DNA of 64,000 bases from Flectonema sp. DT1601 (taxonomy: Eukaryota > Euglenozoa > Diplonemea > Diplonemida > Diplonemidae), in contig OZ025801.1 in the NCBI GenBank assembly GCA_964019425.1, forward strand, positions 62,001-126,000. The letters are read 5' to 3'. Position 1 is the stretch's first letter. Each line of letters begins with the position of its first letter. Positions 14,334 to 55,857 of the stretch are shown piece by piece. Below the pieces are notes generated by a model. It ran no database searches and was not told the DNA's origin. It saw only the letters and a list, made by a program, of their open reading frames with translations. A program made the translations under genes and the position numbers.

Positions 14334-14452
14334 GCCTGCAAGCACCCGGGGTTCCCACGTGATCACTCACCGCAGTACTAACCAGGCCTGCTGGTGCTTA
14401 ACTTCCCAAATCGGGCGGGATGGGGTGCATTCACCAGAGTATGGCCGCAGGC
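14334..14452 (-). rRNA. 5S ribosomal RNA, unit 24
   Basis: Copy 24. Confidence 0.96.
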
Positions 14453-14713
14453 AATAGCAGATTTTTTTATTTTATTTCTTGGGAGTTTCATGGGGCAACC
14501 CACCAGGAAAAAATTTACAGAAAAGTTTTATTTAGCAGCTGGGGCTGGGTCTTAGCTTTAACGTTAACGCAGGAGCGGCGAAAATTACACCTTTCGGGGA
14601 AGAAAGCCAAAAAAAAAAAAAATATATTAAATATTTTTACGTAAAAATAAGAAACACGGTAAGTCTTTGTACATTTTCTTCTGCTTGGCAAACAGAGGTG
14701 CACGGACAATAAA

Positions 14714-14828
14714 AAAACCCCAAAGGAAGAAAATTCTTCCTAAGGGGTTAGCTAAATATTCCAAGCAAGCTCGGATGTTGAGACTGTACCAATAAAGTAC
14801 AGAAACTGTAGCTTTAGAATCGTTGGTT
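14714..14828 (-). ncRNA. SL RNA, unit 25 (last)
   Basis: Last copy; exon 14790-14828. Confidence 0.92.
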
Positions 14829-14936
14829 AACCTTAAAAAGTAGTTACCCCAGGTGATTAGAAATTACGTGGCTTTTAGAACTACCAGCCAGTACTAACAG
14901 AAATGCTTGCTTGCGGGTAGGGAAGTAAGGGAAAAA

Positions 14937-15055
14937 GCCTGCAAGCACCCGGGGTTCCCACGTGATCACTCACCGCAGTACTAACCAGGCCTGCTGGTGC
15001 TTAACTTCCCAAATCGGGCGGGATGGGGTGCATTCACCAGAGTATGGCCGCAGGC
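14937..15055 (-). rRNA. 5S ribosomal RNA, unit 25 (last)
   Basis: Last copy; its 5' flank runs only about 145 bp before the array ends. Confidence 0.96.
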
Positions 15056-15193
15056 AATAGCAGATTTTTTTATTTTATTTCTTGGGAGTTTCATGGGGCA
15101 ACCCACCAGGAAAAAATTTACAGAAAAGTTTTATTTAGCAGCTGGGGCTGGGTCTTAGCTTTAACGTTAACGCAGGAGCGGCGAAAATTACAC

Positions 15194-15219
15194 CTTTCGG
15201 GGGCCTCCGCCCCCGAAAG
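15194..15219. repeat. GC hairpin at the array boundary
   Basis: Perfect 11-bp inverted repeat CTTTCGGGGGC/GCCCCCGAAAG with a 4-nt loop CTCC. The left arm is array sequence (CTTTCGGGG occurs in every unit) and the right arm begins the unique flank, so array similarity ends inside this hairpin. Confidence 0.8.
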
Positions 15220-35680: not shown

Positions 35681-36392
35681 AGCTTTAATTTGATGTATTT
35701 TTCTCTCAAGGTTTCTATACACCAATTCGCATATAAATAATACATGATGTGCTGTCGCCTTTCCAAGTTTACAGAAAAAGCACAGCTCGTTCAGTCCTTT
35801 GATTATCAGAGATCTGCAATGTCCCACTCTAAAGCGTGACATTAGTACTTCCTCTGGTCGTGTTAGAGCTTCTATGTACGGAGGGTGTCTTACCTCTCCT
35901 GGTCCAATCCAGTTCTCCCGTTTTCTCCGCTTGTGGAACGTCATCAATGTTCATGTCAAGTTGAGTGGGCAGTTGTTTAATAATAACATCTTCGTGAGGT
36001 GGATCTTCCTTCAGGCCTGCAGCGAATTTCGCCAGTTGGTCCGCTACTTCGTTGTACCGCACGTTTCTGTGTGCCGGTACATACTGCATGTTGACTTGGA
36101 TTCCCTTCTTCTCCAATTTCATTGCCAACTTCCAGATCTTTTTGTTCATTGGGGACCTTTGTTTATATGGCCCTTGTTCCAATGCCTGCATGACTGACAT
36201 CGAATCAGTCAACAGGTGCGTCGTTGTTGTTAGAGATTCATGTTCATCCTCCGCCACCTGAACTAAATTTTCCAACGCCAGTTTCACTGCAATCTGCTCG
36301 GTCCTATAAGAGGAACCCGCTACTGGTATTTTATATCCAAGTAGACGCATCTTGCTTTCGTTAACCATGACCACAGCGAGTCTGTCTGTATC
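35681..36392 (-). mobile_element. LINE 3' fragment: RNase H and zinc finger
   Basis: Minus-strand sequence resembles the end of the intact LINE ORF2. RNase H begins near FDTDRLAVVMVN and has SYRTEQIAVKLAL, LLTDSMSVMQAL and YVPAHRNVRYNEVADQLAK. After a frame change, FRVGHCRSL...CFFCKLGKATAHHVLFIC is the C-x2-C-x8-H-x4-C finger that aligns with CPFC...RHLMFNC in the intact element. It ends directly at the SL sequence at 35680, so the two form one chimera. Confidence 0.75.
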
Positions 36393-36544
36393 GAAAAGAA
36401 CAAAAACAAAGAGTCTGGAAGCACATATGAGTGTAACTCAATTTAAAAAAAAAGTTATAAAAGTTTTATAAAAAAAGTTAAATAAAAAAAGTTTTTTTTA
36501 TTTATTAAATAAAAAAAAAGTTTCTTTTGGCGGGACCACACAAA

Positions 36545-39500
36545 ATGCCTCCACGCGGCGGTCTCGGACGGCAGAGACCGACTAAATTTTGCAACCAGAT
36601 GGGAGGAGAAATACTCTCACGGAAGGAAAGGAACCAGAAAGCACACACAGAGAACGGGAACGGTAAGAAAGACAGGAAGACGAGCGTAGATACGAAGGAA
36701 CGAGACGAGTTGAGGGAGAGACTCGCACGGGATGGCCTAAGAAGGCTGGATCGGGACGAAGACAGGAAGAAGGACGAGAAGGTCCTCAAGAAAAAACAGG
36801 CAGAGCAGGAAGAAGAGAAGAACGAACTGCTGCAACAACAAGAGCTCCTCTGCAAACAACAGAGTGAGCTAGAAGTTAACTTCCAGAAGAAACAGGAAGA
36901 ATTATTCCAAAAGCAACAACAGCTTGAGGAAGTACTGACTAACCATCAACAGCAGCAACTTGTCAACCAGAAACAACTGGACCATCAACAGCAACAAAAC
37001 CAGGAACATCTGCATCAACAACAGAAGGCTCTTACTCAGTACGAAGATGAACTCTGTCTGAAGCAACAACAGCAAGAACAGCAACTTAGCCATCAAGTCA
37101 AAAAGCAGCAGGAAATTCAACAGCAGCAGCAACAGCAACTTGATCAACAAGTCCAACAACAGCAGGATAAGCATATACAACAGCAACAACAACTTGAGCA
37201 TCAAGTCCAACAACAACATCAAAACCAACAACATAGCCAAGAGTTGTTAAACCAACAACAACAAGAACTGCTACAATATAAAGCAGACCTACAACAGAAG
37301 CAGGAACAAATCCTGATCCAACAACAGCAGCTCGAACAGCAGCACAGCAAGGAGAAGGCTGTCGAGGATGAGTCTCTCCGAAGAAGAAGATGCCAACTCG
37401 AAGAAGACCAACGCCAACAACAACAAGAACAGTCCAGGATTCAACAGAATCTGCAACTGCAACAGGTTAGCCTGGAGGAAAAACAGCAGCTGCTTCAACA
37501 TCAACTGAATGTGGAGTTGGAAAAGGGCAAACTGGACCAGCAGCAACAACAACAGAGACGGGAAGAAATCAAAAAGCAGGAAGATGACCTTGAGCATCAA
37601 CGACTCCAACTACAACGCCAGCAGGAGGACGAGATGGAGAAGGGTAGGAAGGAACTCCAGTGTCTCAGGAACAAGCTAGACATGGAGTTCGAACAACAGA
37701 AGCTGCGTAGCCATCAACTCCAACAACAACAAGAAAAGGAGAAGGAACAAGGGAGGAAGGAACTGCTCCAACTTCAACGGGAGCTTGGAAAGGAGTTCGA
37801 ACAACAGCAACAAGAAGACCAGAAGTCAAAGCTAGATCTGGAACTTCAAGAAGGAAAACTGCGACAACAGCAACAGAAGCTCCAACTCCAACAAAGCAGC
37901 CTCCGTCAGCAAACGCATGCAGTAAGCCAACCTCCGGTTTACTACATGCAGCACCAGCCTTATGCACCGATGCATCAAAGGCAACCGTACCCGCCGGTAC
38001 TTCCGCAACAACAGGGAATTGAACAACTCCGACTGGAGCTCCAGAAAGAGAGAGAAGAGAAGGGTGAGCTGAGGAAGTTGCTCATGGAACTCCAGACTCA
38101 GCTGAAAGAACTGAGACAGGAGTTGGCCTCATCGAGAGCGCAGAGAAGCGAAGAAGTGAATGAGGTCGTAGTAGCCCCGAGCCAACCACCACTGGGAATT
38201 GCCAACTTAGTGAACGGTCTGACCTACTCTCGCTCCTACGGCCTCACCACTGATGAGTCAAAGGTTAGATCAGCTGTACAGAGGAACTGCACATCCGAGT
38301 GGGAATCACTGGAAAAGAAAGCGACGCAGTCGATGAAAGCTGTTGAAAAAGCCAGACGTCTCTGGGAGAAAACCAACAAGAAGGAGAGGGAAGTGTTGAA
38401 CTCCTGGAGCCTGAGGGAAGTTGATTGGAACATTCCGGTCACGAAGTTTGAGGAGGTATCGAAAGGGAATCAAGGAGTAGCCCTTGCGACGCCTTCGGAG
38501 GCAAGAGATCTTCTGGGGATGAAGCCGGAGGTTCCTGCATGGAAAACGTGCAGCGTGGTAACGCTGGACCAAGTGAATGGACAAGGAAGAAGGGAGCACG
38601 TGCTATTATCGAGCAAGGATGGAAACAAGGTACATCGCATCTTCATTCATGACCTGGGTGAGGCTGCTCTACCAAAGGGTAAGCGGGGTATTAAATCGGT
38701 GAAGGCAATAGTGACCGCTCCTAAAAGAAGGTGGAAGGATGATAAGTGGCTTGAGTTAGCGAGTAAGCCTGAGCACCTCATCACAAAAGAAATGAAGGAC
38801 ACACCCGGCTTCATGGAAGCGTACAACTTCAGGGTAACGAAGAGTACGGTGTCGGCTGTCATCCGACTGAGGAAATCCGGGGCGGTGGAACTGCTAAGAA
38901 CTTCCGGCAAAGATGGGAGGTTCTTGTGGATCCAAGACGAAGGGGAGGCTCCGAAGGATACAGTTATTTGGCTTCAGGACGAGTGCTCTTTGAAGGAGGC
39001 AGTTGAACACTCTGATTCCTTGGAATCGTTGGGATTAGTCGAAAACCCTAAAGGTTTTGGTATCAGAGTTTCACCGGAGCTGGAAGATGTAACCAGGGAA
39101 AAACTGGGAATCCCTGCAAAGCTCCCTGAATTAGAAATCTCGGGAATTCCGTTAGATGTACTTCCCCGTGAAGCGGTAGCGCTGCTGGCGAAGGATGGGT
39201 GGCATGTGAGAGCAACCGTGGATGGAGTAAGGACTGGATACAGATGGATGAGGGTGCGTGCTGAAGTGCCGGATGACGACACGGTATTAATCGACGGTAG
39301 GGCATGTACGGTTGAGGTAGTTCAAAGACAAGATCGTAAGAAGCGCCAAGCTGCCAGAGAGGTGGATGTGAAGGAGAAAACTCAGCCAACGTCAACTGCG
39401 GAGAGCACACCGGAAAAAGGCCTTACTCCGCCGGAGAAGAGACGTGATCCAACAGAGGGGGAGGCCTCTAATCGTTGCTACTTGCGAGCAGAATTCTTAT

Positions 39501-39709
39501 CCTTTCATGGTAAGGGGAAGGGGAAGAGACTCTGGCGGGAAGCGGGTGTGAAGATTGAGGAGAGGAAAGGAGCCTTGAAGGAAGTAGGTCCTGTAGAGCA
39601 GGTTGTGACAAAGAAAACTGTGAAGAAGTCGACAGCTGAACAGGATACGATGGAACGAAGGATGGATCGTTTAGAGATGCTGATGACGAGATTCTTGGAA
39701 GGTAAATGA
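36545..39709 (+). CDS. LINE ORF1: Q-rich coiled-coil protein
   Basis: 1,054 aa from ATG 36545 (MPPRGGLGRQRPTKF). The frame is open further upstream, but only from a TTG. The N-terminus is basic. Residues ~85-480 are an extreme Gln-rich coiled coil (runs such as HQQQQLVNQKQLDHQQQQ). Residues ~500-560 are a further heptad helix (LELQKEREEKGELRKLL). The C-terminal half contains what look like repeated beta-rich modules (VNGQGRREHVLLSSKDGNK; SAVIRLRKSGAVELLRTSGK; WHVRATVDGVRTGYRW) and ends in a helix MERRMDRLEMLMTRFLEGK. By analogy with LINE ORF1 it should bind the element RNA and multimerise; no RRM or finger was recognised. It stops at TGA 39707-39709, in frame with ORF2. Confidence 0.85.
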   Translation: MPPRGGLGRQRPTKFCNQMGGEILSRKERNQKAHTENGNGKKDRKTSVDTKERDELRERLARDGLRRLDRDEDRKKDEKVLKKKQAEQEEEKNELLQQQELLCKQQSELEVNFQKKQEELFQKQQQLEEVLTNHQQQQLVNQKQLDHQQQQNQEHLHQQQKALTQYEDELCLKQQQQEQQLSHQVKKQQEIQQQQQQQLDQQVQQQQDKHIQQQQQLEHQVQQQHQNQQHSQELLNQQQQELLQYKADLQQKQEQILIQQQQLEQQHSKEKAVEDESLRRRRCQLEEDQRQQQQEQSRIQQNLQLQQVSLEEKQQLLQHQLNVELEKGKLDQQQQQQRREEIKKQEDDLEHQRLQLQRQQEDEMEKGRKELQCLRNKLDMEFEQQKLRSHQLQQQQEKEKEQGRKELLQLQRELGKEFEQQQQEDQKSKLDLELQEGKLRQQQQKLQLQQSSLRQQTHAVSQPPVYYMQHQPYAPMHQRQPYPPVLPQQQGIEQLRLELQKEREEKGELRKLLMELQTQLKELRQELASSRAQRSEEVNEVVVAPSQPPLGIANLVNGLTYSRSYGLTTDESKVRSAVQRNCTSEWESLEKKATQSMKAVEKARRLWEKTNKKEREVLNSWSLREVDWNIPVTKFEEVSKGNQGVALATPSEARDLLGMKPEVPAWKTCSVVTLDQVNGQGRREHVLLSSKDGNKVHRIFIHDLGEAALPKGKRGIKSVKAIVTAPKRRWKDDKWLELASKPEHLITKEMKDTPGFMEAYNFRVTKSTVSAVIRLRKSGAVELLRTSGKDGRFLWIQDEGEAPKDTVIWLQDECSLKEAVEHSDSLESLGLVENPKGFGIRVSPELEDVTREKLGIPAKLPELEISGIPLDVLPREAVALLAKDGWHVRATVDGVRTGYRWMRVRAEVPDDDTVLIDGRACTVEVVQRQDRKKRQAAREVDVKEKTQPTSTAESTPEKGLTPPEKRRDPTEGEASNRCYLRAEFLSFHGKGKGKRLWREAGVKIEERKGALKEVGPVEQVVTKKTVKKSTAEQDTMERRMDRLEMLMTRFLEGK

Positions 39710-39712
39710 CGG
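39707..39712 (+). promoter_or_regulatory. Candidate UGA-CGG stop-codon read-through site
   Basis: The only stop between ORF1 and ORF2, both in the same frame, is TGA followed by CGG. UGA-CGG is an established leaky context in plant RNA viruses such as tobraviruses, usually aided by 3' RNA structure. Function here is inferred. Confidence 0.55.
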
Positions 39713-42700
39713 CACGTAGATGGAAGGAACTGGGCTGAGACTCGAAGACGTCTCTTGCTGATAGCAGGGGACGTTGAACGAAACCCAGGGCCGAATAGGA
39801 GAAAGGATGGTCCCTCTTGCAAACTAAATGTAATCAGTTGGAATTGTCGCACCATCTCGAACAAAATGGAGTTCATTGGACACATCCTGAGTAAGCTTGA
39901 CCCCGACGTACTTTGCCTTCAGGAGACTTCTTGCAGGATGGCATTGTTTCATTGGAACTACGTTTGCTACAGGAGGGATAGGCCAGGAAGGGGAGGTGGC
40001 CTGATCACTTTAATAAAACGAGGAATTCAACATGATTGCTTTGATATCTCCATACCGTCGATGAGAGGAACCGTCGAGTCGATGGGTGTCAGAATTAACG
40101 AAGACGTAAGTATTCTCAACATCTACTCCCCACCGAGCTCGAGGATTAATTTTGAACTATTCTCCCTTAAACGTGTTGGCAAGTTCATTCTCGCTGGTGA
40201 CTTCAACGCACACCATAGGTACTGGTCCAAGAAAACCGACGTAAAAGGCTGTGACCTTCTCAACTGGACAGGGCAAGAGGACCTCCTGATTGCGAACCCG
40301 CCAGGTCTAGCGACACTGCCGAGACATGGGACCTCGCCCGATCTGATCCTGCACCACGAGGAGATTCAACTGCTTAACTTTGAGCTGGTAGGTGAAGGAA
40401 TTGAGCACGGTTCGGATCATACACCACTCTCTGCTACCTTCGATACGCTCTCACCCCTTGAGCCTTCGGGCAACCACGCGACGAAGAGATCGGTCTGGGA
40501 CTTCAATACAGCTGATTGGTACTCATATGAACATGAACTAGACTACAGGTTTGGAAAGGTAAACAACTCTGCGAGCGTTGGGAGAAGAGCAGTAACGTTC
40601 AACAGAATCGTTCTTGGAGTAGCGAAGAGGTACGTTAGGAGAAGGCTTCGGATCAAAGGGAAGAGAAGAAGAATGTGGAACGCTTCCACCCCAGATACCA
40701 AGCGTGCGAAGGGAAAATTTATCGCTGAACGGCTAGCAAAAGGTGAAGGCTTTGCATATGCGTTCAAAAAGATAAAGGACCTTGAGACGGATGAAGGACG
40801 TGAAATTCACATTCCGGAGTTTGACGAGAACCAACTACCTGCGAAGTTCTTGGAACAATTTGTCAAGACCCCGACAAAACGTAAACTAGGACCTCCGAAT
40901 ACGAAGAGCAGCGACTTCGCCAAAATCGGAGGGAATCTAACAATGACTGAACTGAAGCGAGCCATCAAGAAGGTAAGGCCCGGGAAAGCACCAGGTCCAG
41001 ATGGAATCCATGGGATAATGTTGAAGAACTTATCGGTGATAGGAATGGATTTCCTCCTGGCGTTATTCAATGAATCGTGGCTAACGTCAAAGGTACCGAG
41101 GATCTGGAAGGAGGGTCTTATCAAGCCAGTTTACAAACCAGGTAAGCCAAAAGATAAGATCGCAAGTTTCAGACCGATCACGTTGACCTCGGTGGTGGGT
41201 AAAGTACTTGAAAGAGTGATTTATGATAGGTTGATGTATTGGCTTACCCAGAACAATGCCCTGTCGTCTATCCAGGCGGGTTTTAGAAGAGGAAGGAATA
41301 CGTGTGAGCAGATTTCAATGTTAGTCAACGCTCTTCATGAGGCCAGTGAAAAGAACAAGAGCTCTGTTCTGCTGTCGTTCGACTTCACGGAAGCATTTGA
41401 TAGAATTAATCATGAGAAACTGATCAAGAAGATGAAGAACATGAGTATTCCCTCCCCGTTCATTGCATGGGTAGTTGACTTCCTGAAGGGCAGGCAGGCA
41501 AGGGTGAGTGCGAATGGCAACCTTAGCTCCTACAGAACGGTAACGAGGGGGGTTCCTCAAGGTTCGATTATCGGTCCGCTGCTATACCTGATTTATGTTG
41601 ATGACCTGGCGAAGTTGTTGGAAAAGACTGGCTCAGTTTCGGCTCTTTATGCAGATGACACCGCTTGTGTAGTCTCTGATAAGGACGTTAATTTAACCAA
41701 TAAGAAAGCGCAATGGATCCTTGGACTTGTGGATAGCTGGTGCAAAACCAATGACATGGCACTGTCCGTCTCTAAGACATGTGGTATGCCTGTGCGCTGC
41801 CCAAAGGATATCTACTGGAGACTGGGCTTCCCCAGGACTGCAAAGGATAATTATTACGTTGTAAGCAGGGGAGATCTGGCTAAGATGATCAGACCGAACG
41901 AGTTTGGAAGGCCAATTCTGGGTAGTGGAGAAACCATTCTCAAGGTGGATGATACCGAAGTTGCTAATACGAAGGACCTGCTTGCAATTTTCCCTGATGG
42001 ATCAAGTAAGCTGAGAGTAAAGTTGTTAACCGCAGTACTGATGCCGATGGTAGACAGCGTTAAATACCTGGGGGTGCACATTGATGGTGATTTATCTTAT
42101 GGAACACAGGTCGGAAAGATGCTGGATGAGACCAGGAAGGGTCTTGCACTCCTGGGGAAACTAAAACAGTATGATTTTGATTTTAAGACGCTGTGCATGG
42201 TCAAGAACCTGTACATACTTTCAAGGCTGTCATATGGGCTGGAGAGCTTCGGTCCTTTCCTATCTGAGGGTCAGATTGATCTTGTGGACTTGAATCTGAA
42301 GAAGATTGCGAGAAGGATAACGGGTTGCAGCATCTACACCAGGTCTCTCCCACTGCTCTTGGAGGCGAACATGCTCCCGATGAAGTTGATAATAGAAAAA
42401 CAGGCCAGAACTGCTCTGTTTAGGTATCGATCGCTGAAGTGGGTACGTTCGACGAACCGAATAGCGAAAGGATTCTGGAGTTCTAAGTTGCCGCAGGAAG
42501 ATTGTAACATCGCCCTCCAAGGAATAGTTCAACCTGACAGCATCGAACCTTGGGCGGATGTACCAAATCTAGAGATATCCTGTGGGTATGGTCATAACAA
42601 GACCGGTGATGCAGATGTGGATAGGAACAAATTTGAGGAATACTGCAGGGACCTAGTCCCTTGCAACTCGGCTATATATGTGGACGGCTCACATGATCCT

Positions 42701-43597
42701 GCTAACTACACTGCGGGTGCGGCAGCAGTACAGGTCTCACCAACTGAGAGAACGATGTCGTCAAGACTTGTAGCTACTGAAAGCAGCTACAAGGCTGAAC
42801 AAGTAACACTCAAACTGCTGATGAGAGAAATTGGCAAAGCTGACTCGATCTTGGGTCCCAGGTCAGGTATTACCAGAATCTTCAGTGACTCGAAATCCAA
42901 CCTGGAGGAACTCAATGGAGGGATTGTTGCCCAGAGGAAGTTGAACTCTCTGTTAATACTGGAAAGCATTAGGGATCTGAAGACACAGGTGCATCTCCAG
43001 TTTATCCCGGCCCATGTGGGGATTGAACCACACGATAAGGCTGATAAGCTGGCCAAAGAAGTCTCGAAGGATGCCGAAAGTAAACCGGTCTCAACGACCA
43101 TGGATTTCTTCGCCCACAAATCAAGGGTAGCGAGGGAGTCTCACAGGAAGTTGATAGGAAAGATGATGGAAGCCTCCGAGAAGGCAAAGCCTCCAATGAA
43201 ACGGGTGATGCTCAGACAGTATCTGGAGGCGACCGGAGGATTGAGAACTGCTAGATATCCGAAAGACATGCTGAGGGCTTCGGAAGTAAGAATTGCACAA
43301 TTCAGAACGGGTTCACACCCCTTGCTGAGAGACAAAGGCGTACAACTGAAGTGCCCTTTTTGTAAACGGACGGACTCATCACCTAGACACTTGATGTTTA
43401 ACTGCATGAACTCTGCTCTGGTACGCATCAGAAATGGAACAATTGGATCTGTCATGGAAGAAGCGAAGATTTCAAAGAAGGAACACAGCCTGCTATTTAT
43501 GTTCGCTACGAGGAACTTACATTCCCTCGCTGGCTTCATATGGCATTTAGAACAATGGACGGCAACAAGCTGTTATCAGAAGTTACTATCTTTTTAG
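39710..43597 (+). CDS. LINE ORF2: 2A - endonuclease - RT - RNase H - zinc finger
   Basis: Open from just after the ORF1 stop to TAG 43597 (1,295 codons). Order: 2A peptide (residues ~5-28); AP endonuclease (NVISWNCR, CLQETS, NIYSPPSS, ILAGDFNAHH, HGSDHTPLS); RT (KAPGPDGIHG, GVPQGSIIGPLLYLIYVDDL, LYADDTACVVS, KYLGVHIDGDL); RNase H (AIYVDGSHD, SYKAEQVTLKL, RIFSDSKSNL, FIPAHVGIEPHDKADKLAK); C-x2-C...H...C finger (CPFCKRTDSSPRHLMFNC). The first in-frame ATG (39866) lies beyond the essential ISWNC motif, so translation must start upstream, most simply by read-through of the ORF1 TGA. All catalytic motifs look intact. Confidence 0.85.
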   Translation, partial: RHVDGRNWAETRRRLLLIAGDVERNPGPNRRKDGPSCKLNVISWNCRTISNKMEFIGHILSKLDPDVLCLQETSCRMALFHWNYVCYRRDRPGRGGGLITLIKRGIQHDCFDISIPSMRGTVESMGVRINEDVSILNIYSPPSSRINFELFSLKRVGKFILAGDFNAHHRYWSKKTDVKGCDLLNWTGQEDLLIANPPGLATLPRHGTSPDLILHHEEIQLLNFELVGEGIEHGSDHTPLSATFDTLSPLEPSGNHATKRSVWDFNTADWYSYEHELDYRFGKVNNSASVGRRAVTFNRIVLGVAKRYVRRRLRIKGKRRRMWNASTPDTKRAKGKFIAERLAKGEGFAYAFKKIKDLETDEGREIHIPEFDENQLPAKFLEQFVKTPTKRKLGPPNTKSSDFAKIGGNLTMTELKRAIKKVRPGKAPGPDGIHGIMLKNLSVIGMDFLLALFNESWLTSKVPRIWKEGLIKPVYKPGKPKDKIASFRPITLTSVVGKVLERVIYDRLMYWLTQNNALSSIQAGFRRGRNTCEQISMLVNALHEASEKNKSSVLLSFDFTEAFDRINHEKLIKKMKNMSIPSPFIAWVVDFLKGRQARVSANGNLSSYRTVTRGVPQGSIIGPLLYLIYVDDLAKLLEKTGSVSALYADDTACVVSDKDVNLTNKKAQWILGLVDSWCKTNDMALSVSKTCGMPVRCPKDIYWRLGFPRTAKDNYYVVSRGDLAKMIRPNEFGRPILGSGETILKVDDTEVANTKDLLAIFPDGSSKLRVKLLTAVLMPMVDSVKYLGVHIDGDLSYGTQVGKMLDETRKGLALLGKLKQYDFDFKTLCMVKNLYILSRLSYGLESFGPFLSEGQIDLVDLNLKKIARRITGCSIYTRSLPLLLEANMLPMKLIIEKQARTALFRYRSLKWVRSTNRIAKGFWSSKLPQEDCNIALQGIVQPDSIEPWADVPNLEISCGYGHNKTGDADVDRNKFEEYCRDLVPCNSAIYVDGSHDPANYTAGAAAVQVSPTERTMSSRLVATESSYKAEQVTLKLLMREIGKADSILGPRSGITRIFSDSKSNLEELNGGIVAQRKLNSLLILESIRDLKTQVHLQFIPAHVGIEPHDKADKLAKEVSKDAESKPVSTTMDFFAHKSRVARESHRKLIGKMMEASEKAKPPMKRVMLRQYLEATGGLRTARYPKDMLRASEVRIAQFRTGSHPLLRDKGVQLKCPFCKRTDSSPRHLMFNCMNSALVRIRNGTIGSVMEEAKISKKEHSLLFMFATRNLHSLAGFIWHLEQWTATSCYQKLLSF
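39722..39793 (+). other. 2A ribosome-skipping peptide coding sequence
   Basis: Encodes RRRLLLIAGDVERNPGP, matching the 2A consensus D-x-E-x-N-P-G|P with the usual hydrophobic/basic upstream part. Separation would occur between Gly (39788-39790) and Pro (39791-39793), 26-27 codons after the UGA. 2A sequences are known in L1Tc/ingi and in some CR1/L2 LINEs. Confidence 0.85.
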
Positions 43598-43906
43598 TAT
43601 ATCATACTCATACATCACTCCTAATTCATCTCCTAATAACTCTCTGAGGACATCCGTAGAGCTTCATAGCTCGCAGGTAACCCAGTGGTCTTTGGCCACC
43701 GTCTCCGTATTGATCATTCGCTTTGTACTTACAGTGTCGTGAGCTTCCTATCCGGGGAAGTCCTCCAACGGACTCACAACAGTTGCACTCGTTGTTGCTT
43801 ATTTAATTAGTTAAAAAATAAGAAGAGCGAGTATGCTCAGAAAGAATAAAAACAAAGTAGAAAGACAGGGGGGATGTGACTAAATAAAAATAAATAAATT
43901 TTGGCA

Positions 43907-43989
43907 CCTCTCGTAGCTCAATTGGTAGAGCGCGCGACTGTAGAATAACTGATATCGCGCGGTCGCTGGTTCGATTCCGGCCGAGAGGA
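43907..43989 (+). tRNA. tRNA-Tyr (GTA) with 10-nt intron, copy 1
   Basis: Full cloverleaf: acceptor CCTCTCG/CGAGAGG, D arm TAGCTCAATTGGTAGAGC, anticodon stem CGCGA/TCGCG with CTGTAG, T arm GCTGGTTCGATTCCGGC, discriminator A. The intron AATAACTGAT (43944-43953) follows position 37, the usual site. Euglenozoan tRNA-Tyr genes are known to carry a short intron. It directly follows the LINE 3' end. Confidence 0.95.
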
Positions 43990-44123: not shown

Positions 44124-44206
44124 CCTCTCGTAGCTCAATTGGTAGAGCGCGCGACTGTAGAACCACTGATATCGCGCGGTCGCTGGTTCGATTCCGGCCG
44201 AGAGGA
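44124..44206 (+). tRNA. tRNA-Tyr (GTA) with 10-nt intron, copy 2
   Basis: Mature part identical to copy 1. The intron is AACCACTGAT (44161-44170), differing at positions 3-4. A TTTTT terminator follows (ATTTTTAAG). The preceding 14 nt resemble those of copy 1 (ATTTTGGMA), indicating segmental duplication. Confidence 0.95.
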
Positions 44207-45655: not shown

Positions 45656-46389
45656 TCTGCTAAGTGTTTCTCACTTAGAATTTTATTTTTATGTTCGTTT
45701 TCTATCCCTTCTCCTATCCCTTTTGTTCAAAAAAAGCGGGAGGAAATTCTCTCATTCATGCTAAGATGCACTCTGAACTTTGATTTTTTGATCTGAGTGT
45801 GAGGGAATGACCTGTTAGTGCATTGGGCATAAGCCAGAGGGGCGAGTATTCTACCATGGTTGAAATACTCTGGCAACTGATCTTCAATTTTATGTTGTTT
45901 GTTAGCTGCTGGTGTATCTTGATCATGTGTTGATACTTGCATTTTTTTTATTTGTAATCTTTCACTACAATCATTCTTGCCTATATCTTCTATCACAATT
46001 CTCTTTCTGTTCTGGTCTGTTACTTCATTTGTCTTGTTTAACTTCAGTTACATCCATTTTACTTTTTATTGTTTCCCATCTACTTTTTATTTTCTATTAG
46101 TTCTGGTCAGAAACCCCTGGGCAGCAAGAAGGAAAGCAGTTTAGTACTTCTGGGTGTTTGGCATCACCCCCCATAGTGAGCAAGTACAACAGGTAGCATT
46201 GGTAGTCTGTTGATCCTGAGTGATCCCAGCTACAGTTTTGTTTTTCTTTCTTTTTTTTAGAAGAAGATCAGGACATCCTAGCACTGCTGGATAGTTGCTG
46301 AATGCAGGGCCTGCCTGTGGCATTATAATAACAGGCTAAGTCATTTGTAGTTCATAGTTTACCTTTGATTTTATAACTTCACATAGGTA
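45656..46389 (+). repeat. Hairpin-rich element E, copy 1 (partial)
   Basis: Same sequence as the right part of the solitary copy at 51931-53379 with an internal deletion near 45830. It ends at 46374-46400 in a palindrome (AACTTCACATAG-GTA-CTATGTGAAGTT) that joins it head to head to the next copy, making a large inverted repeat. No plausible gene. Confidence 0.75.
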
Positions 46390-48081
46390 CTATGTGAAGT
46401 TATTGCCTGCATTCAGCAACTATCCAGCAGTGCTTGGAAGTCCTGATCTTCTTCTAAAAAAAAAGAAAGAAAAACAAAACTGTAGCTGGGATCACTCAGG
46501 ATCAACAGACTACCAATGCTACCTGTTGTACTTGCTCACTATGGGGGGTGATGCCAAACACCCAGAAGTACTAAACTGCTTTCCTTCTTGCTGCCCAGGG
46601 GTTTCTGACCAGAACTAATAGAAAATAAAAACAGATGGGAAACAATAAAAAGTAAAATGAATATAACTGAAGTTAAACAAGAATGTTGGTCCTAGACAAG
46701 ACCTTAAACTGACTAACCGGTCTTAATTTTAACTAAGTGTTAACCTAGTTTCTAATATGAAATCTTTTTTCTTTTTGAACAAAATGTAATTATTAATGTA
46801 AAAAAATGAAGAAACAGACCAGAACAGATAGAGAATAAAAAGAAAAGATAATTGCAAGAGTTATTGTAGTAAAAGATTACAAATAAAAAAAAATGCAAGT
46901 ATCAACACATGATCAAGATACACCAGCAGCTAACAAACAACATAAAATTGAAGATCAGTTGCCAGAGTATTTCAACCATGGTAGAATACTCGCCCCTCTG
47001 GCAGGGATTATCCCAGACTTGTCCTTTAATTTAGTTGGACACCATGGCTTACAACCCTTCCAGAGGGAAGCACCATTATGACTTCTATTTTTTTTCTTCA
47101 AGAAAATCATAAGGTGGGAACAAAGAAAAATGCTAAGAGGAACCCCCTATTAACACCTAAGACATCTTAACTGCAGCCCAGCTTATGCCCAATGCACTAA
47201 CAGGTCATTCCCTCACACTCAGATCAAAAAATCAAAGTTCAGAGTGCATCTTAGCATGAATGAGAGAAATTTCTCATCGCTTTTTTTGAACAAAAGGGAT
47301 AGAAGAGGGGATAGAAAACGAACATAACAATAAAATTCTAAGTGAGAAACACTTAGCAGCTTTTAAGGAGCTGAAAAGCAAAAAAAAATCTAAGTGAGAA
47401 ACACTTAGTAGAAACAATTCGTAGCTAATTAAGCTGAAAATAAAAAAATAAAAAATTTCTAAGTGAGAAATACTTAGCAACTTTTAGAACAAATATTTCA
47501 GTAAATAACCTGTAATGATTAAACCATTACAGGTTTGATGCCAAAACTGACAAAGAATGAGTTAAGTTACCAGGTGAGATTTGGACAGTTAGCTTTTGGC
47601 TAAGGCCCTCCCTGAAGAGCAAGAACAAAAAAACTACTCACACCTGAAGAAAACATACACAAAGAACACACTGTAAGCTGTGTGTGTATTTTGTGTTTGT
47701 CACAACAGGAGAGAAAAGAAAGAATGTCAAGGTTGGTCACCTTGCCTATCAACGCACAACATTGGTGGTCTCTACTAGACCCTGAGTGATCCCACTGGAT
47801 CTCTCATCGTTCATAGTACCTATGTGAAGTTATAAAATCAAAGGTAAACTATGAACTACAAATGACTTAGCCTGTTATTATAATGCCACAGGCAGGCCTT
47901 GCATTCAGCAACTATCCAGCAGTGCTTGGATGTCCTGATCTTCTTCTAAAAAAAAAGAAAGAAAAACAAAACTGTAGCTGGGATCACTCAGGATCAACAG
48001 ACTACCAATGCTACCTGTTGTACTTGCTCACTATGGGGGGTGATGCCAAACACCCAGAAGTACTAAACTGCTTTCCGGTCG
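46390..48081 (-). repeat. Hairpin-rich element E, copies 2-3 in tandem, inverted
   Basis: Minus-strand orientation relative to copy 1. The segment ending AAACTGCTTTCC recurs about 1,490 bp apart (46584 and 48076). One terminal-repeat block (CCAGGTGAGATTTGGAC.. near 47570-47630) lies between, so this is more than one unit in tandem. Contains CTAAGTGTTTCTCACTTAG-type hairpins. Confidence 0.75.
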
Positions 48082-48352
48082 AGTTGAGACATATTCCCGT
48101 TGCAATAAATCACCAAGACCCCTCCCGTGTGATCGATCACTTTAAAATGTTACTGTGCAGTTCACCAGTGAGACTAAGACCTCCAACCAAAATTCACCAG
48201 ACTTCAAGTTCCAAATTAGGTAATTTTTGTCAGGCATATTCGAACCATCGACAACAGAAATTCTCACGTTAGTAAAAGCCTTTAGAAATGTGGCTTAACG
48301 ATCCTCATCATCGATTTAGGTTCGTGACTCGGAAGCCTTCGTCATGTGGCCC
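48082..48352. other. Spacer
   Basis: No feature recognised. Confidence 0.35.
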
Positions 48353-48510
48353 TCCTCCCAGCCAAACTCCCAACATGACTGGTGTCTCCAAACGAGGGGT
48401 CGAGCCGAAGCCCGTTTGTCGCCGGAATCGGAAAAGCCACGAGTCCGAAAGGACCCTAACCTCCGAAGAGGCAGCTGCCGTTCCCCCATCATTGGATAAG
48501 TAAAGCGACG
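48353..48510 (+). repeat. Dispersed ~150-bp repeat, copy 2
   Basis: Partner of 15565-15722. Confidence 0.75.
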
Positions 48511-48680
48511 ATAAGAGTAGTGGTATTTCATTGTTGGTAAACCTCCCACCTATAACTACACCCGACTAAAGTCAAAAACGCTGACAGTTTCAAGTCCGTT
48601 CCCTTGACTGCTGTTCGCCAGAGAGTAGGTAGGGGCAGAAGGAATCTCATTGGTCCATTCATGCGCGTCTTTAATTAGAA

Positions 48681-48712
<32 letters not shown>

Positions 48713-48770
48713 CAGTTGCAAATTTGTTTTTACAGGTTGGACTTTGTACGGGACAGGCGGGCTTTTATTA

Positions 48771-48847
48771 GGGGCTCCCCCCCCCTTGGGGGGGGTTGGG
48801 GGGGGGGGCTTGCGTCCCGCCAAGAATTTGGCGGACGCAAGCCCCCC
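48771..48847. repeat. C/G-run hairpin cluster
   Basis: A C-run, TT and G-run hairpin (48776-48795) is followed by a G-run and a second inverted repeat, 48803-48823 with 48828-48847 (GGGGGGCTTGCGTC.../...GACGCAAGCCCCCC). Four or more long G runs make G-quadruplex formation likely. Confidence 0.75.
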
Positions 48848-49045
48848 TTGCACTCTTCCCAGCTTAGTAGGCTAAAAAACAAAAAACCCGCCGCAAGCCA
48901 ATTTTTTGGGTCAAGTTCGAGTCCTGGTGGACAACTTTTTTTTGTAGGGAGTTGGCGATTTCGCAAACTATTTTTGTTGAATTAGAGGTTTTCCCTTATT
49001 ATTTTAAAGAAAAAACAATCAGTTTAGCATCTTGACCATGACGGA

Positions 49046-49259
49046 GAATTTCGATAAGGTGGGAAGTAACGGACTGGGAGCTTTTGGCTCCTGCCCTATT
49101 CCCGATGTAAACTTTCTTTTTATTTTTTATTTTTTTTAACAGGCCCAAAAGGGCGACAATGATGGTTGCTGACCAAGGAATAATATTCAAATGAATTTTC
49201 GTTTCAAAGAAACGAACAGAATTAAGAGAGAGGCAGAGAAAAAAAAAAAAAAAAAAAAG
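49046..49259 (+). mobile_element. Short retroposon R, copy 1, with poly-A tail
   Basis: Starts GAATTTCGATAAGGTGGGAA and contains CGGACTGGGAGCTTTTGGCT. The 3' tail (AATAATATTCAAATGAATTT...GAGAGGCAGAG) is followed by about 19 A. The same tail ends the tRNA-like SINE at 60.0 kb, so R behaves as a SINE with a shared LINE-type 3' end. Preceded by one satellite-unit start (CAATCAGTTTAGC at 49018). Confidence 0.65.
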
Positions 49260-49260
49260 A

Positions 49261-49288
49261 AACCAACGATTCTAAAGCTAGTTTCTGT
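49261..49288 (+). other. Genomic copy of the SL exon, 5' part
   Basis: Plus strand: AACCAACGATTCTAAAGCTA then GTTTCTGT. This equals the first 30 nt of the array SL exon less two bases (CA). It lies directly after the poly-A tail of retroposon R and is cut off at CTGT by the element starting at 49289. Confidence 0.8.
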
Positions 49289-49469
49289 TAAATATATTTC
49301 AGTAATTTGCAGCATCCCAAAGCACCGTTTCACCAAGCATCGAATTTTTCGATGCGTTCCCATAATGTAAATCCAACATTATGATTATTAGTTTCTTAAT
49401 ACCAATTCTTAATTCACACCCATTTATCAGATTTCGAACCCCGTTTCGCGCATACCTTTTTAACGAATT

Positions 49470-49977
49470 TTAAATTGATGCCTCGCTCCAAGGGTGGGGC
49501 GGGGTTATTGTTTGGGAATCTGGAGAATTGGAAATCCTGGGAGGGGCATGGCCATATGGTGAGAGTCGCCACATTAACATTCTTGAAGCTGATGCTCTGG
49601 CCAGGACTCTGGATGGAATCAGCCATGCTGACCACCTGGACATCTGGGTAGACAATACCTCGGTATGTGGAGCATTCAGGAAAAGAATGTGTGTAAGATC
49701 GCATGATTTGAACTTTTTTGTTATAAAAGCAGTGGAGAGAATTTTGTTTTTTAAGTGTTCTTTTTCTTTAAAATGGGTGAGTACGAAGTACAACCCAGCA
49801 GATATTCCATCTAGGGAAGCAATATCTTCGGCTACCAGGCAGAAGGTAGAACTTGCGCTGGGGGAATTCTTTAACTCGCGGCGGGGTGGTGGAGCCGGCA
49901 ACCCAACGAACAGAACTGGGACCGGCAGCGGCGTCCAGCCCATCCATGGCGGACCCACCACAACCCCAACGCGGTGA
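49470..49977 (+). pseudogene. Fossil retroelement RNase H fragment
   Basis: RNase H-type motifs IDASLQGWGGV, INILEADALA, LDIWVDNTSV and KWVSTKYNPADIPSR are typical of DIRS/Ty3-like retroelements. No adjoining RT, protease or recombinase was seen, so it is an isolated broken remnant of unclear age. Confidence 0.65.
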
Positions 49978-50230
49978 CCTACTTGCATGGGTAGTCCACC
50001 AAGTTGACCATTGTTTAGTTTATTGATATCACCGAGTGATTTGTTTCTCATGTTTCCTTTCTTCCAAACAGGTGCCCAAAGGATGCAAGATAATTACTGT
50101 TAAATATATTTCAGTAATTTGCAGCATCCCAAAGCACCGTTTCACCAAGCATCGAATTTTTCGATGCGTTCCCATAATGTAAATCCAACATTATGATTAT
50201 TAGTTTCTTAATACCAATTCTTAATTCACA

Positions 50231-50420
50231 GAATTCGATAGAGTGGGAAGTAACGGACTGGGAGCTTTTGGCTCCTGCCCTATTCCCGATGTAAACTTTC
50301 TTTTTATTTTTTTTTTTTTAACAGGCCCAGAGGGCGACAATGACTGTTGCTGACCAAGGAATAATATTCAAATGAATTTTCGTTTCAAAGAAACGAACAG
50401 AATTAAGAGAGAGGCAGAGA

Positions 50421-50453
<33 letters not shown>

Positions 50454-50480
50454 AAAAAAAAAAAAAAAATATGAAGAGGA
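50231..50480 (+). mobile_element. Short retroposon R, copy 2, with A-rich tail
   Basis: Same body and tail as R copy 1, extending further to GAAGAGGAAATAATCAAACATG within A runs, as in the SINE at 60.0 kb. It lies inside the second retroelement-derived segment. Confidence 0.65.
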
Positions 50481-50784
50481 AATAATCAAACATGAAAAAA
50501 ATAAAAAAAAAAAAATAAAATATAAATAAAAAACGTTGTATGAAAAAGGAAAAAAAAGAAGAAAAAAAAAAAAAAAGACCAGAAAAGGAAAGAGAAAATG
50601 AAAAGGTATAATATTATTGTGGGGATATGAGGATAGCAGGGAGATGCTCTTTTTTTTTTTTTTTTTTTTATTTATTATTTAAAAAAAAGGAAACAATCAG
50701 TTTAGCGTCTCGATCGGGACGGAAAATAGAAATTTAATCGACATAGTCGATCGATAGAAAAAAAAACAATGATAACATTGTTTA

Positions 50785-50819
<35 letters not shown>

Positions 50820-51930
50820 CTTTTAATTATTTTAAAGAAAAAACAATCAGTTTAGCGTCTTGACCAGGACGGAAAATAGAAAGTGATCGACATAGTCGAT
50901 CGATAAAAAAACAATGATAACATTGTTTATTCTTTTTTTTTTTTTTTTAAATTCTTTTTATTTATTTTTTAAAGAAAAAAAAAACGGAAAATAAAAATTA
51001 GTCGACAAAGTCGAACGATAAAAAAAAAACAATGATAACATTGTTTATTCTTTTTTTTTTTTGTTTTTTTTTTGTATTCTTTTTTATTAATTTTGAAAAA
51101 AAACAATCAGTTTAGCGTCTTGACCAGGACGGAAAATAGAAAGTAATCGACATAGTCGATCGATAAAAAAACAATGATAACATTGTTTAATCTTTTTTTT
51201 TTTTTTAAATTCTTTTTATTTATTTTTTAAAGAAAAAAAACGGAAAATAGAAATTAGTCGACAAAGTCGAACGGTAAAAAAACAATGATAACATTGTTTA
51301 TTCTTTTTTTTTATTTTTTTTATATTTTTTTTAATTAATTTTGAAAAAAAAAACAATCAGTTTAGCGTCTTGACCAGGACGGAAAATAGAAAGCGATCGA
51401 CATAGTCGATCGATAAGAAAACAATGATAATATTGTTTATTCTTTTTTTTTTATTTTAAATTCTTTTTATTTATTTTTTAAAGAAAAAAAAAACGGAAAA
51501 TAGAAATTAGTCGACAAAGTCGAACGATAAAAAAAAAACAATGATAACATTGTTTATTCTTTTTTTTGTATTTTTTTTATATTCTTTTTTATTAATTTTG
51601 AAAAAAAAATAAAAAACAATCAGTTTAGCGTCTTGACCAGGACGGAAAATAGAAAGTAATCGACATAGTCGATCGATAAAAAAAACAATGATAACATTGT
51701 TTATTCTTTTTTTTTTTTTTTTTTTTAAATTCTTTTTATTTATTTTTTAAAAAGAAAAAAAAAACGGAAAATAGAAATTAGTCAACAAAGTCGAACGATT
51801 AAAAAAAAAACAATGATAACATTGTTTATTCTTTTTTTTTTATTTTTTTTAAATTCTTTTTTATTAATTTTGAAAAAAAAACAATCAGTTTAGCGTCTTG
51901 ACCAGGACGGAAAATAGAAAGTGATCGACA
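50481..51930 (+). repeat. AT-rich satellite array, ~250-260 bp higher-order unit
   Basis: Two alternating half-units. Half A carries CAGTTTAGCGTCTTGACCAG, GACGGAAAATAG and ATCGACATAGTCGATCGAT. Half B carries CGGAAAATAGAAATTAGTCG and ACAAAGTCGAACGAT. Each half ends ACAATGATAACATTGT (itself an inverted repeat) and a T run. CAGTTTAGCGTC starts lie near 50698, 50848, 51108, 51358, 51622 and 51886. 50481-50690 is mainly A runs. Confidence 0.85.
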
Positions 51931-53379
51931 TTGCTCTTCAGGGAGGGCCTTAGCCAAAAGCTAACAGTCCAAATCTCACCTGGAAATTCAACTCAGTCCT
52001 TGTCAGTTTTGGCATCAAACTTGTAATGGTTTAATCATTACAGGTTATTTACTGAAATATTTGTTCTAAAAGTTGCTAAGTATTTCTCACTTAGAAATTT
52101 TTTATTTTTTTATTTTCAGCTTAATTAGCTACAAATTGTTTCTACTAAGTGTTTCTCACTTAGATTTTTTTTTTTGCTTTTCAGCTCCTTAAAAGCTGCT
52201 AAGTGTTTCTGCTAAGTGTTTCTCACTTAGAATTTTATTGTTATGTTCGTTTTCTATCCCTTCTCCTATCCCTTTTGTTCAAAATAAGCGGGAGGAAATT
52301 CTCTCATTCACGCTAAGATGCACTCTGAACTTTGATTTTTTGATCTGAGTGTGAGGGAATGACCTGTTAGTGCATTGGGCATAGGCTGGGCTGCAGTTTA
52401 GATGTCTTAGGTGTTAATAGGGGGTTCCTCTTAGCATTTTTCTTTGTTCCCACCTTATGATTTTCTTGAAGAAAAAAAATAGAAGTCATAATGGTGCTTC
52501 CCTCTGGAAGGGTTGTAAGCCATGGTGTCCAACTAGATTAAAGGACAAGTCTGGGATAATCCCTGCCAGAGGGGCGAGTATTCTACCATGGTTGAAATAC
52601 TCTGGCAACTGATCTTCAATTTTATGTTGTTTGTTAGCTGCTGGTGTAATTAAATCATGTGTTGATACTTGCATTTGTTTATTTGTTATCTTTTACTACA
52701 ATAACGCTTGCCTATATCTTTTCTTTTTATTCCCTATCTGTTCTGATCTGTTACTTCATTTGTCTTGTTTAACTTCAGTTATATGCATTTTACTTTTTAT
52801 TGTTTCCCATCTACTTTTTATTTTCTATTAGTTCTGGTCAGAAACTCCTGGGCAGCAAGAAGGAAAGTAGTTAAGTACTTCTGGGTGTTTGGCATCACCC
52901 CCCATAGTGAGCAAGTACAACAGGTAGCATTGGTAGTCTGTTGATCCTGAGTGATCCCAGCTACAGTTTTGTTTTTCTTTCTTTTTTTTAGAAGAAGATC
53001 AGGACATCCAAGCACTGCTGGATAGTTGCTGAATGCAGGGCCTGCCTGTGGCATTATAATAACAGGCTAAGTCATTTGTAGTTCATAGTTTACCTTTGAT
53101 TTTATAACTTCACACAGGGTACTATGAACGATGAGAGATCCAGTGGGATCACTCAGGGTCTAGTAGAGACCACCAATGTTGTGCGTTGATAGGCAAGGTG
53201 ACCAACCTTGACATTCTTTCTTTTCTCTCCTGTTGTGACAAACACAAAATACACACACAGCTTACAGTGTGTTCTTTGTGTATGTTTTCTTCAGGTGTGA
53301 GTAGTTTTTTTGTTCTTGCTCTTCAGGGAGGGCCTTAGCCAAAAGCTAACAGTCCAAATCTCACCTGGAAATTCAACTC
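51931..53379 (+). repeat. Hairpin-rich element E, solitary full copy with direct terminal repeats
   Basis: A 64-bp direct repeat (TTGCTCTTCAGGGAGGGCCT... to ...CACCTGGAAATTCAACTC) lies at 51931-51994 and 53316-53379. The element interrupts a satellite unit at GATCGACAT. Internally, three or four CTAAGTNTTTCTCACTTAG hairpins lie in 52075-52235, and a stretch near 52560-52610 shows GCCAGAGG...CCTCTGGC-type symmetry. No coding potential. Form suggests a non-autonomous element; family unknown. Confidence 0.75.
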
Positions 53380-54111: not shown

Positions 54112-54703
54112 TTTTTTCCCATCCCATTCAGTGGCGTAAATTGCGCGGCTTCGTCAAGAAACCAAGCGGATTTTCACTCCTTTTACAAAAAAAATCGGCG
54201 GCCGCAAGTGTACGCGTCAGTGCGTGACTTGCGCTTCTTGCGTCTTCGCAAGGAAAAAGAGAGATTAAGAGTAGGAGTGTAGGTCGAAGTTGAATTGCAG
54301 TTTAGGCCCTGTTTACTTTCTCCTTTCCCCTCCCCCAGTTTTTTCCCATCCCATTCAGTGGCGTAAATTGCGCGGCTTCGTCAAGAAACCAAGCGGATTT
54401 TCACTCCTTTTACAAAAAAAATCGGCGGCCGCAAGTGTACGCGTCAGTGCGTGACTTGCGCTTCTTGCGTCTTCGCAAGGAAAAAGAGAGATTAAGAGTA
54501 GGAGTGTAGGTCGAAGTTGAATTGCAGTTTAGGCCCTGTTTACTTTCTCCTTTCCCCTCCCCCAGTTTTTTCCCATCCCATTCAGTGGCGTAAATTGCGC
54601 GGCTTCGTCAAGAAACCAAGCGGATTTTCACTCCTTTTACAAAAAAAATCGGCGGCCGCAAGTGTACGCGTCAGTGCGTGACTTGCGCTTCTTGCGTCTT
54701 CGA
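54112..54703 (+). repeat. 227-bp tandem repeat, 2.6 units
   Basis: Units start at 54112, 54339 and 54566 (TTTTTTCCCATCCCATTCAG), nearly identical. Units end in TTTCTCCTTTCCCCTCCCCCAG, a strong splice-acceptor-like tract. The third is interrupted at CTTGCGTCTTCG by minisatellite expansion. No supported coding frame. Confidence 0.85.
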
Positions 54704-55735
54704 AGTCTTCGAAGTCTTCGAAGTCGCAGAAGTCGCAGAAGTCGCAGAAGTCGCAGAAGTCGCAGAAGTCGCAGAAGTCGCAGAAGTCGCAGAAGTCGCA
54801 GAAGTCGCAGAAGTCGCAGAAGTCGCAGAAGTCGCAGAAGTCGCAGAAGTCGCAGAAGTCGCAGAAGTCGCAGAAGTCGCAGAAGTCGCAGAAGTCGCAG
54901 AAGTCGCAGAAGTCGCAGAAGTCGCAGAAGTCGCAGAAGTCGCAGAAGTCGCAGAAGTCGCAGAAGTCGCAGAAGTCGCAGAAGTCGCAGAAGTCGCAGA
55001 AGTCGCAGAAGTCGCAGAAGTCGCAGAAGTCGCAGAAGTCGCAGAAGTCGCAGAAGTCGCAGAAGTCGCAGAAGTCGCAGAAGTCGCAGAAGTCGCAGAA
55101 GTCGCAGAAGTCGCAGAAGTCGCAGAAGTCGCAGAAGTCGCAGAAGTCGCAGAAGTCGCAGAAGTCGCAGAAGTCGCAGAAGTCGCAGAAGTCGCAGAAG
55201 TCGCAGAAGTCGCAGAAGTCGCAGAAGTCGCAGAAGTCGCAGAAGTCGCAGAAGTCGCAGAAGTCGCAGAAGTCGCAGAAGTCGCAGAAGTCGCAGAAGT
55301 CGCAGAAGTCGCAGAAGTCGCAGAAGTCGCAGAAGTCGCAGAAGTCGCAGAAGTCGCAGAAGTCGCAGAAGTCGCAGAAGTCGCAGAAGTCGCAGAAGTC
55401 GCAGAAGTCGCAGAAGTCGCAGAAGTCGCAGAAGTCGCAGAAGTCGCAGAAGTCGCAGAAGTCGCAGAAGTCGCAGAAGTCGCAGAAGTCGCAGAAGTCG
55501 CAGAAGTCGCAGAAGTCGCAGAAGTCGCAGAAGTCGCAGAAGTCGCAGAAGTCGCAGAAGTCGCAGAAGTCGCAGAAGTCGCAGAAGTCGCAGAAGTCGC
55601 AGAAGTCGCAGAAGTCGCAGAAGTCGCAGAAGTCGCAGAAGTCGCAGAAGTCGCAGAAGTCGCAGAAGTCGCAGAAGTCGCAGAAGTCGCAGAAGTCGCA
55701 GAAGTCGCAGAAGTCGCAGAAGTCGCAGAAGTCGC
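54704..55735. repeat. 9-bp minisatellite (GAAGTCGCA)n, about 113 copies
   Basis: Preceded by three 9-bp CTTCGAAGT variants, then a near-perfect GAAGTCGCA run. It grows out of the third 227-bp unit. All six frames are open, giving long meaningless frames; the minus frame reads DFC repeats from an upstream ATG at 55814. Confidence 0.95.
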
Positions 55736-55857
55736 CCCCAAACCCCCTTACATTTACTTTTTTCCACTCTATTTTGTATCTCGGCTCCATTCCATCGCCG
55801 GAAAAATCAGCCACACCGGGGATTGAACTGGTGCCTGTAAATCACTTTTTAAAAAAG

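Follow-up and report, generated by a model that had tools for sequence, protein, structure and literature searches.

An in-frame UGA-C, a linker and a 2A motif join ORF1 to ORF2 in LINEs of a diplonemid genome

It has long been asked how long interspersed nuclear elements (LINEs) with two open reading frames (ORFs) make small amounts of their ORF2 protein, and several answers, unrelated to one another, have been given. A LINE copy in the genome of the diplonemid Flectonema sp. DT1601 raises this question in an unusual form. The copy is ~7.4 kb long, is flanked by a 7-bp duplication (TTTTGGC), and lies within a stretch of 64,000 nucleotides (assembly GCA_964019425.1, contig OZ025801.1, positions 62,001 to 126,000), which we refer to as "the window" and whose numbering we use throughout. 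The two ORFs share one frame and are separated by a single TGA followed directly by CGG, and a 2A motif lies a short distance downstream. A first-pass annotation, made from the sequence of the window, proposed that a small fraction of ribosomes read through this stop codon, and that 2A then releases ORF2 as a separate protein. Is this how ORF2 is reached, and is the arrangement particular to this copy?

The junction between ORF1 and ORF2

When translated, positions 36545-43597 form one frame interrupted by just one stop codon, as had been annotated; the arrangement of ORF1, TGA-CGG, linker, 2A and ORF2 in one frame is real. The ORF1 protein (1054 aa) is glutamine-rich in its N-terminal half and has no Pfam match, and a search for it in other species returned its own cluster alone (P0121, 23 members). 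The Pfam matches in the ORF2 frame are to a reverse transcriptase (RVT_1, PF00078; 1.5e-37), to an endonuclease (Exo_endo_phos_2, PF14529, 1e-12; Exo_endo_phos, PF03372, 1e-11), which follows the 2A as the annotation had stated, and to RNase_H, a weak match given that its value (8.4e-4) falls under the curated cut-off. With its endonuclease and reverse transcriptase, a simple 3′ tail, a target-site duplication and many dispersed copies, the element is an apurinic/apyrimidinic endonuclease (APE)-type non-long terminal repeat (non-LTR) retrotransposon. The 2A motif, GDVERNPGP, agrees with the consensus, D(V/I)ExNPGP behind an in-frame nascent chain. The motif was correctly identified by the annotation but its distance was not: the linker from TGA to the 2A core comprises 20 codons, and the ~26 codons originally given are nearer the distance to NPGP. 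ORF2 appears to lack a start codon of its own, as was also proposed. There is no in-frame ATG between the TGA and position 39860, and the three ATGs within 39710-39860 are all in another frame.

The same junction recurs across the genome (89.5 Mb in 92 contigs). A DNA pattern for 2A has 137 matches, compared with none for a reversed control pattern, and a DNA search with the junction region lists 41 places, a lower bound on the number of copies. We read 105 of the 137 2A sites (100 listed by the pattern search and five from the junction-region search), leaving out of the counts L021, L040, L045 and L052, each of which duplicates a site already included. At 102 of these 105 sites, spanning eight family groups (A, B, C, D, D2, E, G and H), an in-frame TGA-C lies upstream of the 2A. 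Many copies are nearly identical within a family, such that the 102 sites represent far fewer independent events, for which the number of family groups, eight, is a better measure. The three sites that do not conform (L014, L113 and L039) are all decayed: L014/L040 retains TGA-CGG but has a one-base insertion near the 2A, L113 retains TGA-CTT but its linker is no longer in frame, and L039 is considered below. A sense codon, another stop codon or another frame in intact copies, any of which would have spoken against the proposal, was looked for, and the proposal stands. At least 400 codons are open on either side, up to the edge of the fetched piece, at 41 of the 102 sites; the others include broken copies and 34 pieces that are too short to judge. 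Judging from the sites read, the arrangement is general for the 2A-bearing LINEs of this genome.

The sequence around the stop codon follows the pattern AAN TGA C throughout. The codon before the TGA is AAC at 48 sites, AAG at 24, AAA at 17 and AAT at 13. The base after it is invariably C, and the next can be any of the four letters: the codon after the TGA is CTA at 33 sites (each followed by G), CTT at 32, CGG at 17, CCG at 13, CAT at six and CTC at one. The 2A core follows the TGA after 20 codons (29 sites), 28 codons (27 sites), 18 (24), 48 (15), 17 (six) or 19 (one). Type II readthrough usually takes place at a UGA with CGG or CUA as the next codon (PMC11166343), consistent with the annotation of TGA-CGG as a leaky context, and UGA-CUAG drives readthrough of four mammalian genes, with 1.5 percent for UGA-CUA alone (PMC4132726). 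Family A has TGA-CGG (17 of 102 sites) and families C, D and D2 have TGA-CTAG (33 of 102), meaning that 50 sites have a typical CGG or CUA context; the other 52, in families B, E, G and H, keep UGA-C alone. For ilarviruses, the evidence for readthrough included a coding extension without a conserved AUG behind UGA-C (PMC11166343). The linkers described here are similar in this regard: an in-frame ATG is found at only eight of 102 sites (L015, L047, L056, L074, L075, L078, L079 and L125), at three different positions, with five of the eight ATGs being three codons ahead of the 2A core. A related protein, P0005, has a Met ahead of its 2A, and we considered an ATG-started ORF2 on this basis. Of 15 in-frame family E copies read, 14 have GTG at this codon and one has ATG; hence, the P0005 start is an annotation effect.

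If ribosomes pass through the TGA, the linker should evolve as protein-coding sequence. Nei-Gojobori counts for pairs of families suggest that it does. Across all 18 codons after the TGA, families G and H differ by eight synonymous changes and one nonsynonymous change, a ratio of nonsynonymous to synonymous differences (pN/pS) of 0.05. The pN/pS values are 0.15 for B-G, 0.15 for A-G, 0.16 for A-H and 0.14 for B-H, and the A-B value is 0.25 when all 20 codons are compared and 0.12 for the last 18. In the other two frames (G-H, B-G, A-B and A-G), the changes are mostly nonsynonymous, with pN/pS >1 or with no synonymous changes at all. Synonymous change between G and H starts by the second or third codon after the TGA, the first codon being CTT or CAT. 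By this measure, the linker of families A, B, G and H is translated in the frame of ORF2, and this holds from very near its start. Because no AUG is available and the linker appears to be under protein-level selection, ribosomes must presumably pass through the TGA in these families.

We propose the following series of steps. Translation of the element RNA would begin at the ORF1 ATG, and most ribosomes would terminate at the UGA, yielding the ORF1 protein. A minority would read UGA-C as sense and continue through the linker of 17-48 codons to the 2A, where ORF1 with a short 2A tail would be released, and the ORF2 protein, starting with proline, would be made next. The leaky stop codon would set the amount of ORF2, and the 2A would make ORF2 a separate protein; in the cell, both steps and the resulting ratio are predicted from sequence. 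Readthrough followed by 2A release is very probably the correct explanation of the junction, and both the retention of in-frame TGA-C at nearly all sites and the selection on the linker in families A, B, G and H support this part of the original annotation.

In many cases of type II readthrough a stem-loop lies 3′ of the stop codon, and the annotation suggested looking for RNA structure there. A hairpin was found in families A and G, and marginally in family B; a general stimulator was not. Folding energy 3′ of the stop codon is low in family A at three lengths (z −2.2 to −2.7) and in family B at one of three lengths (z −2.3 at 150 bases), with no value below −1.5 in other families. Relative to a null of synonymous codons, the hairpin stands out in A, where all 13 pairs are present (P 0.0002), and in G, with 12 of them (P 0.01); it is marginal in B, with 11 (P 0.07), and at the null level in C, D, D2, E and H. 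We consequently reject a universal RNA stimulator, and suggest that the hairpin may help in some families.

Other routes to ORF2

First, UGA might be decoded efficiently as sense, through a change in the host code, selenocysteine, a suppressor transfer RNA (tRNA) or RNA editing. ORF1-2A-ORF2 would then be a single polyprotein, which fits with the unbroken frame, and 2A would split it, as it does in other LINEs. The use of TGA elsewhere in the genome makes this very unlikely. TGA occurs within conserved host domains in none of 20 TCP-1 matches, none of 42 histone matches and five of 65 HSP70 matches (from a search that scored 63 of 88 candidates), and all five of the last come from a single array, on contig C13, where they probably mark the edge of an exon. 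Two histone genes, which we take to be H3-like, have the same protein end, and one stops at TAA (L134) while the other stops at TGA (L135). The other host gene ends read are TAG (L129, L130, L151 and L152) and TAA (L131, L132 and L133); the remaining pieces fetched for this purpose break off ahead of a stop codon or continue into introns. In the window, ORF1 and ORF2 together contain 32 TGG codons and one TGA, the junction stop itself. We reject reassignment of TGA in the host on the basis of the conserved domains and the histone stop codons, and the selenocysteine variant is disfavored in that an Rfam search of 39400-43950, with matches considered up to E 5, gave no selenocysteine insertion sequence (SECIS).

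Second, ORF2 could be translated from its own trans-spliced messenger RNA (mRNA), initiating at a non-AUG codon just ahead of the 2A. In its favor, a string that resembles a spliced leader occurs 25 times in the 5S array of the window, and trans-splicing is common to all Euglenozoa (PMC10161547). Nonetheless, from 120 nt upstream of the stop codon to the 2A, the longest pyrimidine run is only 4-7 nt in eight family representatives, there is no conserved in-frame ATG, and the synonymous change between G and H has already begun by the second or third codon after the TGA. Such an mRNA would also leave the invariant in-frame TGA-C unexplained. We consider this route very unlikely.

Third, a small, frame-keeping intron could excise the TGA. 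Suitable GT..AG pairs exist in all eight representatives (two to nine per family), but so many are expected by chance, they have no signal in common, and in A, B, G and H the codons of the linker directly behind the TGA are under selection, which would not be seen in an excised stretch. It is the selection and the absence of a shared signal that argue against splicing, which we judge highly improbable. Lastly, SART1-like reinitiation after termination at the ORF1 stop codon (UAAUG) is scarcely credible, since the ATG that overlaps the stop codon in the window copy (AAATGACGG) is not in the ORF2 frame and the AAT, AAC or AAG ahead of the TGA in other families provides no such ATG, meaning that no AUG both overlaps the stop codon and is in frame with ORF2.

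Several observations weigh against readthrough followed by 2A release, or limit its reach. (i) The codons CCG, CTT, CTC and CAT after UGA are outside the contexts named as typical, and no structure 3′ of the stop codon is common to all eight families. (ii) TGA is the stop codon at just one of nine readable host gene ends (L135). (iii) The decayed copy L039 has TGG in place of the expected TGA. (iv) The D-D2 linker is weakly constrained, with a pN/pS of 0.68 over 28 codons vs. 0.74 in frame +1, and distant family pairs have values of 0.37-0.87, which carry little weight given that synonymous divergence is high or saturated. (v) A relative in EukProt, P0004, starts with Met just ahead of its 2A, and some relatives may use an AUG start for ORF2, as P0004 hints. 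(vi) All element DNA compared comes from one genome.

Module exchange and the setting of the window copy

We compared the fetched parts of one representative per family, which for families C to H are partial ORFs. There are two types of ORF1. Type I comprises families A, B, G and H (35-74 percent identity), and type II comprises C, D, D2 and E (32-75 percent). The two types have no BLAST match to one another at E 0.001, and profile comparison gives E 0.001 with a probability of 22 percent; a distant relation is possible. The ORF2 groups are drawn differently: A, C, G and H share 68-92 percent identity, and D, D2 and E share 63-94 percent, with 41-44 percent between groups. Family C joins a type II ORF1 to an ORF2 of the A/G/H group. 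Family B (L029/L153) has a type I ORF1, 60-61 percent identical to those of G and H, and a linker resembling theirs, while its ORF2 contains an RVT_1 domain and has no significant match to other families in its first 480 residues. Family B keeps TGA-C and 2A ahead of a polymerase from another lineage. This polymerase has 66 database relatives, many of them Diplonema papillatum proteins, as are the first that carry an organism name, and several named by their source after R2 or jockey. Five of these relatives have NPGP near the N-terminus, four as GD(V/I)HPNPGP, and so the exchange may have occurred at a 2A common to both parents. As judged by these comparisons, families have exchanged their ORF1 and ORF2 modules at the TGA-C/2A joint and have kept the joint. 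We favor, with some reservation, a broader reading: that AAN-UGA-C, linker and 2A form a portable two-step recoding cassette, through which an ORF1 from one LINE lineage and a polymerase module from another could recombine and yet yield separate proteins in a set ratio, and that the 2A-bearing LINE families in this genome would use it as their standard route of expression.

The features of the window copy are listed in Table 1. Its 5′ edge is the same in two of six other copies fetched (L081 and L091), the remaining four pieces holding no element sequence there, and its 3′ end is shared by all six fetched for that end (L082, L084, L086, L088, L090 and L092).

Table 1. Features of the LINE copy in the window
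Feature	Position	Strand	Remarks
Left target-site duplication, TTTTGGC	36525..36531	+	Identical to 43899-43905
Element 5′ end, GGGACCACACAAA	36532..36544	+	13 nt, directly upstream of ORF1 ATG
ORF1	36545..39709	+	1054 codons and TGA; ends AAA TGA
TGA-CGG, predicted leaky stop	39707..39712	+	Sole stop inside frame 36545-43597
ORF2 frame	39710..43597	+	Terminates in TAG
20-codon linker, from TGA to D of 2A core	39710..39769	+	Predicted to be read solely after readthrough
RNA hairpin, 13 bp	39747..39775	+	Overlaps 2A start
2A (StopGo) motif, GDVERNPGP	39767..39793	+	Consensus; predicted break Gly 39788-39790 / Pro 39791-39793
Predicted post-2A ORF2 product	39791..43597	+	Endonuclease, reverse transcriptase, weak RNase H match; stop TAG
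3′ untranslated region	43598..43898	+	TAAA-like tail at end; same 3′ end sequence in other copies
Right target-site duplication, TTTTGGC	43899..43905	+	One base ahead of tRNA gene

The copy is one base ahead of a tRNA gene (43899-43907), the first of two intron-bearing tRNA genes (43907-43989 and 44124-44206) that ARAGORN reads as Ile(gat), although the loop would also be compatible with Tyr(GTA) and an intron. Another copy, L081/L082, is inside a 5S ribosomal RNA (rRNA) unit. A preference of LINE insertion for genes transcribed by RNA polymerase III is possible, such placement being seen in two of seven copies looked at; next to copy L091, where a tRNA was suspected by eye, ARAGORN finds none. 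Just 5′ of the element, on the minus strand, an ORF with a ribonuclease H (RNase H) domain (35829-36374) is probably the remnant of a different retroelement.

Elsewhere in the window, positions 449-15220 hold 25 tandem units of ~603 bp, each with a 5S rRNA gene on the minus strand. The array also contains 25 occurrences of a 37-base string, on the same strand as the 5S genes, which is presumably a diplonemid spliced leader. A large-subunit rRNA fragment is found at 15713-15832, and an inverted copy of the sequence at 15588-15720 is present at 48356-48486. The tandem unit of Diplonema papillatum likewise combines 5S rRNA with spliced-leader RNA, and pieces of its 28S gene are scattered genome-wide (PMC10161547); these parallels, together with the relatives of the family B polymerase, fit with a diplonemid host. 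Nested inverted repeats, with arms of up to 389 nt, occupy 45657-53379, and several long ORFs overlapping on both strands at 54582-55840 suggest a low-complexity or repetitive stretch.

Comparison with known systems

LINEs, 2A and UGA readthrough are individually known. The annotation regarded readthrough plus 2A between ORFs as a nonstandard arrangement, and in keeping with this, the open literature searched, which leaves most subscription papers outside its scope, contains no report of a LINE that uses readthrough and then 2A. Neither "readthrough" nor "read-through" occurs in a paper on 2A signal sequences (PMC4981915), and "readthrough" is absent from the main text of a 2026 StopGo paper. 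If our reading is true, it adds another answer to the question of ORF2 dosage, with dose (the leaky stop codon) and separation (2A) encoded in ~90 bases of the window copy. It would also predict that UGA readthrough operates in diplonemids, which are abundant among marine protists but have been little studied with regard to translation, and would give a reason why ORF1 and ORF2 could swap between LINE lineages without loss of expression.

In the L1Tc/ingi elements of trypanosomes, the 2A is encoded close to the N-terminus of a single ORF and is not known to be preceded by a stop codon. Like the elements described here, these are euglenozoan LINEs with a 2A in frame with their proteins (PMC4981915, PMC5972666). 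LINEs of sea urchins and other animals similarly have a 2A-like sequence on the N-terminal side of the LINE protein, but there the N-terminal 2A doubles as a signal sequence (PMC4981915). SART1 also makes a LINE ORF2 from the ORF1 mRNA by an unusual translation step, in its case reinitiation at the overlapping AUG of UAAUG, of which the elements here have no in-frame equivalent (PMC5972666). Type II viral readthrough and mammalian UGA-CUAG readthrough have the UGA with CGG or CUA that is present at 50 of the 102 sites here, and an in-frame extension without a conserved AUG; they differ in that here a 2A follows the extension, such that a separate protein is predicted, and a common 3′ stem-loop is absent (PMC11166343, PMC4132726). 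The nearest precedent found is in cardioviruses, where StopGo and frameshifting likewise place two recoding events close to one another. In cardioviruses, StopGo comes first and frameshifting leads to early termination, whereas in these LINEs readthrough would come first and 2A would split the product (PMC5009743).

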